Assembly: GCA_003168375.1 (NCBI GenBank)
Contig: PMSI01000001.1
Span: forward strand, 806,001-870,000
Direction of reading: 5' to 3'
DNA from: Vulcanimicrobiota bacterium
Lineage (GTDB): Bacteria; Vulcanimicrobiota; Vulcanimicrobiia; Vulcanimicrobiales; Vulcanimicrobiaceae
DNA length: 64,000 nucleotides
The first letter of the stretch is position 1. Every line of letters starts with the position of its first letter. Positions 15,751 through 41,496 of the stretch are shown in pieces. The notes below the pieces were generated by a model. It worked only from the letters and a program-made list of their open reading frames with translations, was not told the DNA's origin and ran no database searches. A program made the position numbers and the translations under genes.

Positions 15751-17046
15751 ATGGACCACGTGATCGCGGCGCGCGCCCTGATGGGGACGTCGCTCGCGTT
15801 CCACATCGTGTTCGCGGCGCTCGGCGTGGGGCTGCCGCTGCTGGTGTTCGCCGCCGAGGGCCTGTGGCTGAGGACGAAGCGCCGCGCCTACTACGACCTC
15901 GCGCGCACGTGGGCGAAGGGGATGGCGATCCTGTTCGTGGTCGGTGCGATGTCCGGAACCGTCCTCGCGTTCGAGCTGGGGCTGCTGTGGCCGACGTTCA
16001 TGAAGTATGCCGGCGGGATCATCGGTTTGCCGTTCTCGCTCGAAGGCTTCGCGTTCTTCATCGAAGCGATCTTCATCGGGATCTACCTGTACGGCTGGGA
16101 GCGCCTGAGCCCGGTCGCGCACTGGCTGAGCGGGCTGCCGATCGTGGTCAGCGGCGCCCTGTCGGCCGCGTTCGTCACGACCGCGAACGCGTGGATGAAC
16201 ATGCCGACGGGTTTCCGCATCGTCAACGGCGCCGTCGTCGACGTCGATCCGATCGCCGCGATACTGAGCCCGCCCTGGCTGGTCGAGGTGCTGCACACGA
16301 CGCTTGCCGCCTACGTCGTCACCGGCTTCGGCGCCGCCGCGGTCTGCGCGTTCGCCTTGCTGCGCCGGAGCGCCGAAGACCGGCGCGAGCAGGTGTACGC
16401 CGGGCTCACGATCGCGATGATCGTCGCGTCGATCGCGATTCCGCTGCAGTGGATCGTCGGCGACGAGATCGCGCGCTTCGACGCCGAGCACGAGCCCGCC
16501 AAGTTCGCCTCGCTAGAGGTGCTGTTCCACACCCGGCGGCACGCGCCGATCACGATCGGCGGGATCGTGCACGGTGACACCGTCCGCTACGGGATCGAGA
16601 TCCCGAGCGCGCTCAGCCTGCTGGTCGCATACGATCCGAACGCCGAAGTCAAAGGCCTCGACCGCGTCGCTCCGGAGGACCGTCCGCCGGTCGCTGCGGT
16701 CCACTATTCGTTCGACACGATGGTCGGCAGCGCGTCGCTGCTGCTGCTGGTCGCGATCGTCTGGACGATCGCCGCGCTGCGCAAGCGCGTGCCCGCAAAA
16801 CCGCTGCTGATCGGCATCGCCGTCTGTGGGCCGCTCTCGGTCGTCGCGATGGAGGCCGGCTGGTTCGTCACCGAGTTCGGACGCCAGCCCTGGATTGCGC
16901 GCGGCCTGCTGCGCACGAGCGACGCCGCGACGGTCGCCCCCGGCGTCGACCTCCAGTTCTACGGCTTCGCGATCGTGTACGTCATCCTCGCCGCGACGTG
17001 CTGGTGGCTGCTGCGCCGCGTCGGCACGAAGGACCACACAGCGTGA
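15751..17046 (+). CDS. cydA: Cytochrome bd-type quinol oxidase subunit I
   Basis: This 431-residue inner-membrane subunit carries the b and d hemes and oxidises quinol while reducing O2. H18 in SLAFHIVF is the conserved N-terminal heme ligand, NAWMNMPTGF is the second ligand block, and EFGRQPW is the conserved GRQPW signature. The periplasmic Q loop is short, as in cyanide-insensitive-oxidase-like CydA. The cydB start overlaps its stop. No CydX-like peptide is apparent between or after the two genes. Confidence 0.96.
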   Translation: MDHVIAARALMGTSLAFHIVFAALGVGLPLLVFAAEGLWLRTKRRAYYDLARTWAKGMAILFVVGAMSGTVLAFELGLLWPTFMKYAGGIIGLPFSLEGFAFFIEAIFIGIYLYGWERLSPVAHWLSGLPIVVSGALSAAFVTTANAWMNMPTGFRIVNGAVVDVDPIAAILSPPWLVEVLHTTLAAYVVTGFGAAAVCAFALLRRSAEDRREQVYAGLTIAMIVASIAIPLQWIVGDEIARFDAEHEPAKFASLEVLFHTRRHAPITIGGIVHGDTVRYGIEIPSALSLLVAYDPNAEVKGLDRVAPEDRPPVAAVHYSFDTMVGSASLLLLVAIVWTIAALRKRVPAKPLLIGIAVCGPLSVVAMEAGWFVTEFGRQPWIARGLLRTSDAATVAPGVDLQFYGFAIVYVILAATCWWLLRRVGTKDHTA

Positions 17047-18038
17047 CGCCCGTCCTCGGCGCGGCGCTCGTCGCGCTCACCGCGGTTTCGCTCTACGCGA
17101 TTCTGGGCGGCGCCGACTTCGGCGGCGGCGTGTGGGACCTCTTCGCGAGCGGCTCGCGCCGTCGGGCGCAGCGGGACGCGATCTCGAACGCGATCGGTCC
17201 GGTGTGGGAAGCGAATCACGTCTGGCTGATCTTCGCGATCGTCGCGCTGTTCACGTGCTTCCCGCCTGCCTTCGCCGACATCGGCGCGAACCTCAACACG
17301 CCGCTCACGTTGGCGCTGCTGGGCATCGTCATGCGCGGCGCGGCGTTCGTCTTCCGCAACCACGCGTCGGACACGCTCGCGGCGGCGCGCAGCTGGACGG
17401 CGATCTTCGGCGCCGCCTCGATCATCGCACCGTTCTTCCTCGGTGACGCGGCCGGTGCGATCGCTACCGGCCACTACGCCTGGACGTCGCCGTTCGCGCT
17501 CTCCGCCGGCGTGTTCGCCGTTGCGCTCTGCGCGCAGATCGCCGCCGTCTTCCTCGTCCGCGAAACCTCCCACGACCCCGCGCTGCGCGGCGACTTCCGC
17601 CGCCGCGCCGTCCGCGCGACGCTCGCCGTCTGGGTCGCCGGCCTCGTTCCGGCGCTACTGGCGCATCAGAGCGAACCGGCGCTCTTCGCGGCGTTGGTCG
17701 GCCCGACGGCCCGCATCGCGATCGCGAGCGCGATGCTGCTCGGCATCGTCGTGATGCTCCTAATCGCCAACCGTCGCGACACGTTCGCGCGCGTCGCGGT
17801 CGGCGCCGAAGCGCTCGCGGTCCTCGCCGGCTGGTTCGGAGCGCAGGCCCCCAACTTGATCCCAGGCCGCTGGACCTTCCAATCCGCCGCGGCCTCGCCG
17901 GCGATGCTGAACGCGTTCCTCATCTCCACCGCGATCGGGGCGCTTTTCCTGATCCCAAGTCTCGCGCTGCTGTTCTCCACGTTCAAGGGACACGGCGGCG
18001 GAAGCGACGCCGCACTTCCGCCGCGTCCCAGCCGTTGA
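17043..18038 (+). CDS. cydB: Cytochrome bd-type quinol oxidase subunit II
   Basis: This 331-residue membrane subunit pairs with CydA. The GTG at 17043 overlaps the cydA stop in a GTGA, which decides the start. The N-terminus has the CydB signature ILGGADFGGGVWDL, then WEANHVWLIF, and about eight membrane helices follow. The length is normal for the short CydB group. The operon ends here; the next genes are on the other strand. Confidence 0.96.
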   Translation: MTPVLGAALVALTAVSLYAILGGADFGGGVWDLFASGSRRRAQRDAISNAIGPVWEANHVWLIFAIVALFTCFPPAFADIGANLNTPLTLALLGIVMRGAAFVFRNHASDTLAAARSWTAIFGAASIIAPFFLGDAAGAIATGHYAWTSPFALSAGVFAVALCAQIAAVFLVRETSHDPALRGDFRRRAVRATLAVWVAGLVPALLAHQSEPALFAALVGPTARIAIASAMLLGIVVMLLIANRRDTFARVAVGAEALAVLAGWFGAQAPNLIPGRWTFQSAAASPAMLNAFLISTAIGALFLIPSLALLFSTFKGHGGGSDAALPPRPSR

Positions 18039-18329: not shown

Positions 18330-19493
18330 TCACGGCACGCCCAGTTCCTCGGGATCGACGAACTCCTGGGGGTGAAAGAATGCCTGCGCGATGATCGTCG
18401 GTACGACTGCGGTGAGGATGACGACCGTCACCAGCGTCGTATACTGAGCCTGGTCGATGTAGTGATGCGTGAGACCGTAGAGACTCGAGATCGTGCCGAA
18501 CGTGAGGCCCGTCGCCATCATCAGCGTGATATACCCGGCGTTCTTCGGAGCGTGCTGGAACGCTCGCGCAGCCGGAAAGACGCCGACGCATTTCGCGACG
18601 ACTTTCACGACGAAGAATGCGGCTATTGCGCCGATGCCTGCGACGGCAGCCGAGAACGAAACCAGCGTACCCGCCTTGAGAAAGTAGAACGGCGTCAAGA
18701 AGCCCATGGTCATGGAGCGCAAACGCCGCGACACGTCGGGATTCGCGAAGAGGAAGCCCGCACAAGCGAGGCCCAAGAAATAGGCCGGCAGGACACCCTC
18801 GCTCTTCGCTGCCGTTGCAATCGCGCTGAGAACGAGGATGATCAGGAACGTCAGACGGAGTCCGGGCTCGCTCACCCACCGCGAGGTCTTCTCGAACACG
18901 GACGGCAAAAACTTTGGGACGAAGACGATTGCCAGCACGATCGCCACAACGAGTGCGGCCAGCCAGCCGTTGTAGTTCGCGAACAGCATGCCGAGCGCCA
19001 CGACCGTCCCAAGATCCGTGATGAAGCACGCGGCCAGGATCAACTGGCCGAAGTCTTTGCCCGCCAAACGTGACTCTACCATCACCGCATAGACCACCGC
19101 GACCGACGTCGTCGACATCGCCACGCCGGCGATTTTCGAAGCGTCGACGGTCCAATGGGCAACGAAATACGCGTACGCCATGGCTGCGAGAAACGGCGCA
19201 AAGAAGGAAATCGCTCCGATGACGACCGCCGGGCGGAGTTGGCGGCGAAGGACCGTGGGCTCGATCTCCGCGCCGGCGAGAAACGTCAGCATGATGCTTC
19301 CGAAGCCCGCGATGAAGTCGACCCAGGCGGTCGATCGCAGGCCGATGAGGTTGCCTGCGAGCACGCCGAGCAGGATCTCGACGAGAGCGGCGGCCAGGCC
19401 CACGCGGCGCGCGATGAAGGCGGCGGCCGTCGCAAGCGCAAGCCAAACGGCGGCGAACGCCCAAAGGTTGTCGGCCGGAATCGCGAGGGTCAC
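18330..19493 (-). CDS. CPA2-family cation:proton antiporter under fluoride riboswitch
   Basis: This 387-residue inner-membrane protein has about 12 helices and the CPA2/KefB-like Na+(K+)/H+ exchanger pattern: the LVEILLGVLAGNLIGL entry helix, FLAGAEIEP, and the ITDLGTVVALG helix with a conserved acidic residue. The GTG at 19493 is preferred because GGAGG lies six bases upstream within the riboswitch expression platform; the longer frame would start inside the aptamer hairpin. Antiporters are established members of fluoride riboswitch regulons, so its job here is probably coping with fluoride or the proton/cation imbalance it causes (inference). Confidence 0.88.
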   Translation of the reverse strand: MTLAIPADNLWAFAAVWLALATAAAFIARRVGLAAALVEILLGVLAGNLIGLRSTAWVDFIAGFGSIMLTFLAGAEIEPTVLRRQLRPAVVIGAISFFAPFLAAMAYAYFVAHWTVDASKIAGVAMSTTSVAVVYAVMVESRLAGKDFGQLILAACFITDLGTVVALGMLFANYNGWLAALVVAIVLAIVFVPKFLPSVFEKTSRWVSEPGLRLTFLIILVLSAIATAAKSEGVLPAYFLGLACAGFLFANPDVSRRLRSMTMGFLTPFYFLKAGTLVSFSAAVAGIGAIAAFFVVKVVAKCVGVFPAARAFQHAPKNAGYITLMMATGLTFGTISSLYGLTHHYIDQAQYTTLVTVVILTAVVPTIIAQAFFHPQEFVDPEELGVP

Positions 19494-19496
19494 GAA

Positions 19497-19592
19497 CGTC
19501 CTCCTTCCCGGCGCAAGGCGCCGGCGCAAAGAGGAGTCATTGGCCCATCGACGGGCGGTTTCGCTGATGCGGGGCGGACTCCACCGCCCGTG
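19497..19592 (-). promoter_or_regulatory. Fluoride riboswitch (crcB motif) with SD-sequestering platform
   Basis: Read on the minus strand, P1 is GGGCG/CGCCC (19589-19585 with 19576-19572), closed by the loop GUGGAGUC. After an 11-base insert comes AAACCGCCC, a short hairpin closed by GGGC, and then AAUGACUCCUC. Loop bases GGAGUC (19582-19577) pair perfectly with GACUCC (19538-19533), reproducing the pseudoknot of known fluoride aptamers at the same positions. Downstream, a CCGGCG/CGCCGG hairpin can extend by pairing CUCCU (19536-19532) with AGGAG of the Shine-Dalgarno (19505-19501). The two pairings exclude each other, giving a translational ON switch. One usually conserved loop A is G here. 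Confidence 0.92.
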
Positions 19593-19692
19593 TCTCCGAG
19601 CAGCCGCCCGGGTCCATTACCGTGCTGTTGCCCCGTCTGTACGCGGATTCCTCGCTGTCCTCGAGCACGAGGTCGCGCTCGGGACGGCCGGG

Positions 19693-39537: not shown

Positions 39538-41496
39538 GTGTTCGCCGCCGTCGTCCTTGCCGCGGCCGTCGCGGCGAGCGCCTCACCGACGCCTTCACCG
39601 GCGCCGAGTCCGAGCGCGCCGGCGCCGATCGGCAGCGTCACCGTCGTGAGCGGGAGCCCGCAGTCGCTGCACCGTGCGCCGCAGGCGGCGTCGGTGCTCG
39701 ACGCGCGCACGCTGCGCGCTTCGACCGCGGCCTCGCTCGACCAAGTCCTGCGCGCGCTCCCCGGCTTCGACCGCGATCGCAGCAACGCACCGTTCACGAA
39801 CTACGGCCAGCTGCGGCTCTCGTTCGCCGGCGCGGGGAGCGATCGCGGCGCGCTATTCGTCGACGGCGTTCCGGCGCAGGACGGATTCGGCGGGCAGGTC
39901 GACTGGAACGCGCTGCCGCCCGGCGAGATCGAGCGCGCGGAGCTGCTGCGCGGTCCGGGCTCGGCGCTCTACGGATCGGGCGCGATCGGCGGAGCGCTCT
40001 CGCTCACGACGCTGCGCCCAGGCTCGCCGAACGAGTCGTTCGCGCTGAGCACCGGCGGGATCGACCGCGGCAGCGCGGCATTCGCCGGCGACCGGCAGGT
40101 CGGCGCCGTGCGCGCGCTGGTCTACGCCTCGACGCGGCGCTTGGCGTACGACGACATCCCGCCCGACCAGACCTCACCGGTCGACCGCAGCGCGCGCTCG
40201 ACGGCGGACGTCATGCACGTGCAACTGCGCGCCGGCGACGCTCGAAGCGCCGTCCGGCTCGACGCGCTGGTCGCGGACGACGCGCAGGAAGACGGCCGCC
40301 CGTTCGCAGGCTTCTCGCGATCGACGCGCCAGCTCGCACTGAACTGGACGGACGTGCGCCGCGAATCGCTCGACCTCACCGCGTACGCGCGCGCGACGAC
40401 GCTGGTGAATCTCGCCGACCGTTTTCCGTCGGCGCCGGGCCAGCAGCTCTACACGCAGCACGTGCCGACCTCGGACGCCGGCATCCGCGCGCGCTGGTCG
40501 ATCCCGCTCGACCGCGCCGGCGACGGAACCAGCGCGCTGACCGTGCTGCTCGACCATCACGCCGTCAGCGGCCGCAGCGACCAGCTCACGCCGGCGAACG
40601 TCGTGCAGAGCGACGTCGCGGGAACGCAGCAGCTGGACGGCTTGGCCGTGCAGGCGGTGACGCAAGGCCGGCTGGGCGCGATCCTCGGCGCGCGCTACGA
40701 CACGGTCCGCACCGAGGCGCTCGGCGATCGCACGGCGGCCGCGATCTCGCCGCGGCTCGCGCTGCACTACGATCTTTCGCCCGCACTCGCGGTGCGTGCG
40801 GCATACGGCACGGGATTGCGCGCGCCGTATCTGAACGAGCTGGTGCGCAGCTTCCGTATCGGCACCGTGCTCGAGCAGAGCAACGCCGCGCTGGTCCCCG
40901 AACGCAGCCGCTCCACCCAGCTCGGGCTCGACCTCGCGAGCGCCGCGGGGCGGTTCGCGCTCGACTATACCGGGACGCGCGTCGCGAACGCGATCGGTTT
41001 TCAAACGATCTCGCCGACCGTGCAGCAGCGCGCGAACTTCGGCCGCACCGCGAGCGACGCGTTCACCGGCGAGTACGAACGGGCGTCACCGTGCGGGCGC
41101 GTGCGCGCGTTCGGGATCGCGCAGCACGCGCGCGTCGTCTCGGCGGCGGCGCCACAGATCGGCAAGCGGCTCGCGCTCGTCCCGGATTCGGCGGCGTCGC
41201 TCGGCGTCGAGCGCACGGTGCGCGCGCTGACCGGTTCGCTGGAGCTCTCGTACAGCGGCCCGACGTTCGCCGACGATCTCGAGCGTCAGCCGCTCGGTTC
41301 GGCGCTGCTGATCGGCGGCCGGCTGACGCTGCACGACGCGCGCGGCGACGCGCTCTCGCTCGCCGTCGACAACCTCGCCGACCGCGTGTACCTCACCAGC
41401 GTCGACCGGCTCGGTCCGCCGGCCTCGGTGACGCTGCGCCTCTCGGTTCCGGTCGGCGCGCGGCCGCCGGTTACGCCGGGCGCGGCGTGCGGCTGA
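39538..41496 (+). CDS. TonB-dependent outer-membrane receptor
   Basis: This 652-residue protein has an N-terminal signal sequence with a Pro/Ser-rich linker (about 1-32). A plug domain follows (40-155), with RTLRASTAASLDQVLRALPG, GALFVDGVPAQDGFGG and RAELLRGPGSALYGSGAIGG, the classical plug signature. A beta-barrel fills the rest. It should import a chelate or cofactor using TonB energy. The plug motif set is closest to BtuB/siderophore-type receptors, but the ligand cannot be stated. The GTG start follows AGGGGG nine bases after fni, so co-transcription with fni is likely. Confidence 0.92.
   Translation: MFAAVVLAAAVAASASPTPSPAPSPSAPAPIGSVTVVSGSPQSLHRAPQAASVLDARTLRASTAASLDQVLRALPGFDRDRSNAPFTNYGQLRLSFAGAGSDRGALFVDGVPAQDGFGGQVDWNALPPGEIERAELLRGPGSALYGSGAIGGALSLTTLRPGSPNESFALSTGGIDRGSAAFAGDRQVGAVRALVYASTRRLAYDDIPPDQTSPVDRSARSTADVMHVQLRAGDARSAVRLDALVADDAQEDGRPFAGFSRSTRQLALNWTDVRRESLDLTAYARATTLVNLADRFPSAPGQQLYTQHVPTSDAGIRARWSIPLDRAGDGTSALTVLLDHHAVSGRSDQLTPANVVQSDVAGTQQLDGLAVQAVTQGRLGAILGARYDTVRTEALGDRTAAAISPRLALHYDLSPALAVRAAYGTGLRAPYLNELVRSFRIGTVLEQSNAALVPERSRSTQLGLDLASAAGRFALDYTGTRVANAIGFQTISPTVQQRANFGRTASDAFTGEYERASPCGRVRAFGIAQHARVVSAAAPQIGKRLALVPDSAASLGVERTVRALTGSLELSYSGPTFADDLERQPLGSALLIGGRLTLHDARGDALSLAVDNLADRVYLTSVDRLGPPASVTLRLSVPVGARPPVTPGAACG

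Follow-up and report, generated by a model that had tools for sequence, protein, structure and literature searches.

A G6-C38 variant of the RF01734 fluoride riboswitch family carrying an added hairpin, predicted to control translation of a CPA2 antiporter

The leader of a CPA2 cation:proton antiporter gene on the minus strand of the window (the whole stretch of DNA that was analysed, 64,000 nucleotides long) is very probably a fluoride-responsive riboswitch that turns translation on, a variant of the RF01734 family with a G6-C38 pair and an added hairpin called P1b. The family match, the competing pairings and their conservation, the gene context and the covariation of positions 6 and 38 were all computed; fluoride as the ligand, the direction of switching and fluoride transport by the antiporter are what we infer. 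Fluoride riboswitches, the exchange of their pseudoknot and their links to transporter and formate hydrogenlyase-type genes are established (PMC2864571, PMC8752731, PMC11077080).

A default Rfam scan of the window returned nothing above gathering; a second scan of the region, ranked by E-value (cmscan, 501 bases), aligned RF01734 (model 1-64) to the leader at 33.0 bits with an E-value of 2e-7. The default scan missed the element because this score falls just below the gathering score of 34 bits, which is a curation cut-off and no structural feature. Across the whole genome, the leader match has an E-value of 4.1e-7 and the second-best match reaches 15.4 bits, leaving the leader as the sole credible copy. 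The parts of the element and the genes behind it are as follows.

19524-19597, minus strand: fluoride riboswitch aptamer, RF01734 match, top-scoring in the genome
19586-19589, minus strand: P1 5' strand GGGC, partner 19572-19575
19584, minus strand: position 6 (T. petrophila numbering), G for A, covarying with position 38
19577-19582, minus strand: pseudoknot 5' strand GGAGUC (positions 8-13), from the Rfam alignment
19572-19575, minus strand: P1 3' strand GCCC, partner 19586-19589
19562-19571, minus strand: extra hairpin P1b, CGC-AUCA-GCG, 10 nt with a 3-bp stem, in the gap between P1 and the AAAC linker
19558-19561, minus strand: AAAC linker, from the sequence
19543-19556, minus strand: P3 hairpin GCCC-GUCGAU-GGGC, stems 19556-19553 and 19546-19543
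19542, minus strand: position 38, C for U, partner of position 6 and covarying with it
19540, minus strand: linchpin A40, from the sequence
19533-19538, minus strand: pseudoknot 3' strand GACUCC (positions 42-47), from the Rfam alignment, also the anti-Shine-Dalgarno strand
19532, minus strand: U48, partner in the A40-U48 linchpin pair, from the sequence
18330-19493, minus strand: CPA2 cation:proton antiporter coding sequence, GTG start (19493), 387 aa, PF00999 and TIGR00932
18062-18289, minus strand: truncated CrcB/Fluc open reading frame, 75 aa, C-terminal half only, PF02537 profile positions 46-103

The structural features of RF01734 are present in the leader, namely P1, P3, the six-pair pseudoknot and both A40 and U48, whose pair has the linchpin role described in PMC8752731, and the element lies upstream of fluoride-resistance genes (CPA2 and the truncated CrcB). 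An earlier note had placed a fluoride aptamer here with P1, the GGAGUC/GACUCC pseudoknot and P3, and the sequence and the RF01734 match bear it out. The covariance search named there as a check fell one bit short for the leader itself (33.0 vs 34), whereas the orthologous elements in G089 (35.3 bits) and G095 (34.5 bits) lie above the gathering score. The low score goes together with two things that the family model does not expect, a compensated pair swap and an inserted hairpin, and the curated threshold misses genuine members that carry them. Comparative evidence supports membership of the leader in RF01734, with fluoride as the putative ligand. It shares P1, P3, the six-pair pseudoknot, A40-U48 and the AAAC linker with the examples from T. 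petrophila, B. cereus and P. syringae, which likewise lie in 5' leaders of fluoride-related genes, and it differs from them in having G6-C38 for A6-U38, the added 10-nt P1b and C13-G42 for U-G at pseudoknot position 1. A U-G wobble occupies the C13-G42 place in many elements and was found critical in tested transcriptional switches (PMC11077080), which weighs against the proposed switch.

In the crystal structure of the T. petrophila aptamer, A6 is paired with U38 in reversed Watson-Crick fashion, and the ion site is built of phosphates and three Mg2+, not of base identity at positions 6 and 38 (PMC11586693). The same long-range contact, A-U in known structures, is present in the leader as G-C, G6 being compensated by C38. 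To the earlier note, a G where the loop usually has a conserved A was an oddity; the G is there, but the compensating C38 had escaped notice and explains it. Reverse Watson-Crick pairs are known to exchange A-U for G-C, for instance the Levitt pair 15-48 of tRNA. Since MAFFT handled P1b and P3 badly when the variant RNAs were aligned, pairs were counted by position from the ends of the Rfam hits, which gave 52 A-U, 28 G-C, four A-C and one U-U in the family of the window, two of the four A-C cases being weak matches near 22 bits. Bias was avoided by a pattern that leaves positions 6 and 38 both free and allows zero mismatches; its 74 matches in four taxa comprise 43 A-U, 29 G-C and 2 U-A pairs with no mixed combination. 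They are distributed as 25 A-U and 17 G-C in the phylum of the window, 6 G-C in Myxococcota, 17 A-U, 5 G-C and 2 U-A in Acidobacteria, and one A-U and one G-C in a single alphaproteobacterium. A reversed control pattern had zero matches in the searched taxa, and the variant pattern was not found in the viral contigs searched. Both U-A loci are full RF01734 matches (43.1 and 40.2 bits). The tertiary pair beside the fluoride site can thus be swapped whole, between A-U, G-C and U-A, and evolution in this way plainly confirms the A6-U38 contact in the crystal. The exchange was not found in the available parts of the literature, although the Thermotoga structure paper and the papers on the discovery of fluoride sensing may mention it; P1, the pseudoknot and P3 are treated in a recent study of covariation, with no mention of pair 6-38 in its available part (PMC13273304).

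Two observations touch on the range of these forms. The U6-A38 fluoride riboswitches (L247 3700-3764, minus strand; L248 361-428, plus strand) are a third compensated form. A subgroup of G6-C38 elements (L055, L058, L053, L054, L056 and others) has A for U at position 7 (GGAGG), and these precede DUF190 or NuoH-like genes.

It could be argued that the leader is a decayed riboswitch which kept its sequence and lost fluoride binding with the conserved A6, considering that position 6, an A in most elements, belongs to the ion-binding region, that the score lies under the gathering threshold and that the operon has partly decayed, its crcB being truncated. This is very unlikely, as the change from A6 to G is compensated by U38 to C, the same double change occurs in many phyla before intact genes, and the pseudoknot, the linchpin and the Shine-Dalgarno (SD) competition are conserved across orthologues from several species. 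It is even harder to believe that the G6-C38 and P1b variants sense another ligand, such as a different small anion or a metal-anion complex. Two coordinated changes near the ion-binding pocket do make them a recognisable subclass, but the ion site in T. petrophila is not made by base identity at 6 and 38 (PMC11586693), and variants and canonical elements share their kinds of target gene (CPA2, crcB, DUF190, NuoH-like), at times within one cluster. Elsewhere, G6-C38 elements have a CPA2-like antiporter or a crcB open reading frame directly downstream, which argues for fluoride as the ligand.

The second departure from the canonical aptamer had been described as an 11-base insert after P1; an insert is present there, but it is 10 nt long (19571-19562) and folds as the P1b hairpin. 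By length and sequence, P1b occurs in 28 of 28 G6/C38 members of the family of the window. Pattern matches from the own phylum measure 51-59 nt with G-C against 41-46 nt with A-U, the former being longer because P1b separates P1 from the linker in each G-C element. The folding z-scores of P1b against simple shuffles average only -1.1, too weak to serve as proof, and the argument for P1b is made from recurrent complementary stems and from length. That every G6-C38 element needs P1b was rejected, since the hairpin is absent from Myxococcota and many Acidobacteria loci, which makes the two features separable. Neither feature is unusual in the sense first proposed, both being common to relatives and not peculiar to this leader. 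A compensated pair swap and a shared hairpin point to a variant of a known switch and not to a new one.

Downstream of the aptamer lie the two elements on which the proposed control would act.

19508-19524, minus strand: platform hairpin CCGGCGC-CUU-GCGCCGG, from the predicted fold
19500-19505, minus strand: Shine-Dalgarno AGGAGG, unpaired probability at most 0.018 unconstrained and 0.06-0.66 with the pseudoknot strands blocked

In the predicted minimum free energy (MFE) fold of the leader, UCCUCUUU and AAGGAGGA form a helix around the CCGGCGC/GCGCCGG hairpin that buries the SD. Without fluoride, UCCUCUUU, which includes most of the pseudoknot 3' strand together with the linchpin U, would pair with AAGGAGGA in this way; with fluoride and Mg2+, the GGAGUC/GACUCC pseudoknot and the A40-U48 linchpin would form and use up the anti-SD strand, the SD would open, and the CPA2 antiporter would be made, whose role is presumably to export fluoride or to put right its effects. 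SD opening, about 0 in the free RNA, climbs to about 0.2-0.4 once the pseudoknot strands are blocked, both in the window and in five orthologues. Because any SD has some match to CUCCU, it was tested whether the helix runs past it. The mean length of the anti-SD helix is 6.35 bp in 81 relatives and 5.12 bp (sd 0.11, maximum 5.43) in a swap control in which 5' arms were exchanged between loci (200 exchanges), so the helix exceeds the trivial CUCCU/AGGAG match. Its strands also co-vary locus by locus, for instance as GACAAU/AUUGUC, ACGU/ACGU and ACUG/CAGU. The competition between pseudoknot and SD that the earlier note had proposed is therefore supported by the MFE fold, the blocked-strand folds and the comparison of 81 loci.

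The best-studied fluoride riboswitches are transcriptional, and the GC-rich hairpin that follows the pseudoknot might serve as the stem of a terminator, so that an action mainly on transcription termination has to be weighed. It is highly unlikely, because no U run follows the hairpin, no terminator-like site was found near the leader, and the strand pairs instead with the SD, a pairing conserved in relatives. No sigma-70-like site was found near the leader either. Conserved SD pairing with no terminator makes translational ON control most likely. The fluoride riboswitches of Burkholderia pseudomallei and Pseudomonas syringae are named as translational in PMC13273304; like them, the window element has no terminator, with control deduced from SD sequestration, and unlike them it has an extra GC-rich hairpin inside the anti-SD helix and a different target gene. 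The sequestered fold is predicted to be 11.5 kcal/mol better than the fold with the pseudoknot strands blocked, a strength that makes folding order during transcription probably important. In terms of this model, the switch may have to act while the RNA is being transcribed and not at equilibrium, and it may leak or switch weakly.

The target gene matches PF00999 (Na_H_Exchanger) over residues 20-370 at 129.8 bits (cut-off 26.2, E-value 1.5e-37), and its best NCBIfam model is TIGR00932 (CPA2) at 90.5 bits (E-value 1.2e-25), below the 238.3 cut-off of that model. It therefore has the Na_H_Exchanger domain over its full length and is nearest to CPA2 models; a solved-structure search with the antiporter found nothing. 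Together with plasmid homologues behind RF01734 elements, these matches uphold the CPA2 antiporter as target, as first suggested. Behind the antiporter, the operon holds the only CrcB of the genome as its second gene, which lacks the N-terminal half of the complete CRCB domain (about 103 positions). Since no other CrcB and no CLC was found in the genome, no intact candidate fluoride exporter other than the antiporter is recognised there, and the locus adds a case of this kind; transport of fluoride by the antiporter is presumed. The operons of relatives continue with DUF190 genes. In G095 (L041 3215-3661), the start of a DUF190 gene runs in frame into a CrcB C-terminal half, whereas DUF190 and a full crcB are intact in the same operon in G096; by sequence, the changes in the window and in G095 look like internal deletions. 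The cydA and cydB genes of cytochrome bd oxidase (15751-18038, plus strand) are convergent with the riboswitch operon, and a tRNA-Gln(CTG) at 40508-40600 (minus strand) is the only tRNA found in the window.

The element also precedes the same antiporter in G089, G095, G096, G027 and G097, and 56 of 99 genomes of the family have RF01734 matches, many of them clustered. Four antiporter homologues with 46-50% identity are located on plasmids of Klebsiella, Methylocystis, Rubrobacter and Rhizobium, and all four examined lie directly behind RF01734 matches of 49.5-59.4 bits, with neighbours that include universal stress protein, crcB, DUF190, mutS and eno genes. These systems have the same antiporter subfamily in the same position as the window; their riboswitches differ in being A6-U38 without P1b, and a universal stress protein gene comes next in three of the four (the Rhizobium stretch is unannotated), where the window has the truncated crcB. 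It is conceivable, though rather unlikely, that G6-C38 with P1b marks a tuned subclass with a fluoride threshold or folding rate unlike that of A6-U38 cluster-mates, in which case one genome would answer fluoride in graded steps. Fluoride islands (L052, L050, L049, L043/L044, L048/L047, L067) hold up to 8 RF01734 matches in about 20 kb per genome, preceding NUDIX, metallophosphoesterase, dynamin-like, MutS-like, DUF190 and NuoH-like genes. In Hephaestia caeni (G150; L251, L252), 13 RF01734 matches fall within about 37 kb, and the set includes both A6-U38 and G6-C38 forms.
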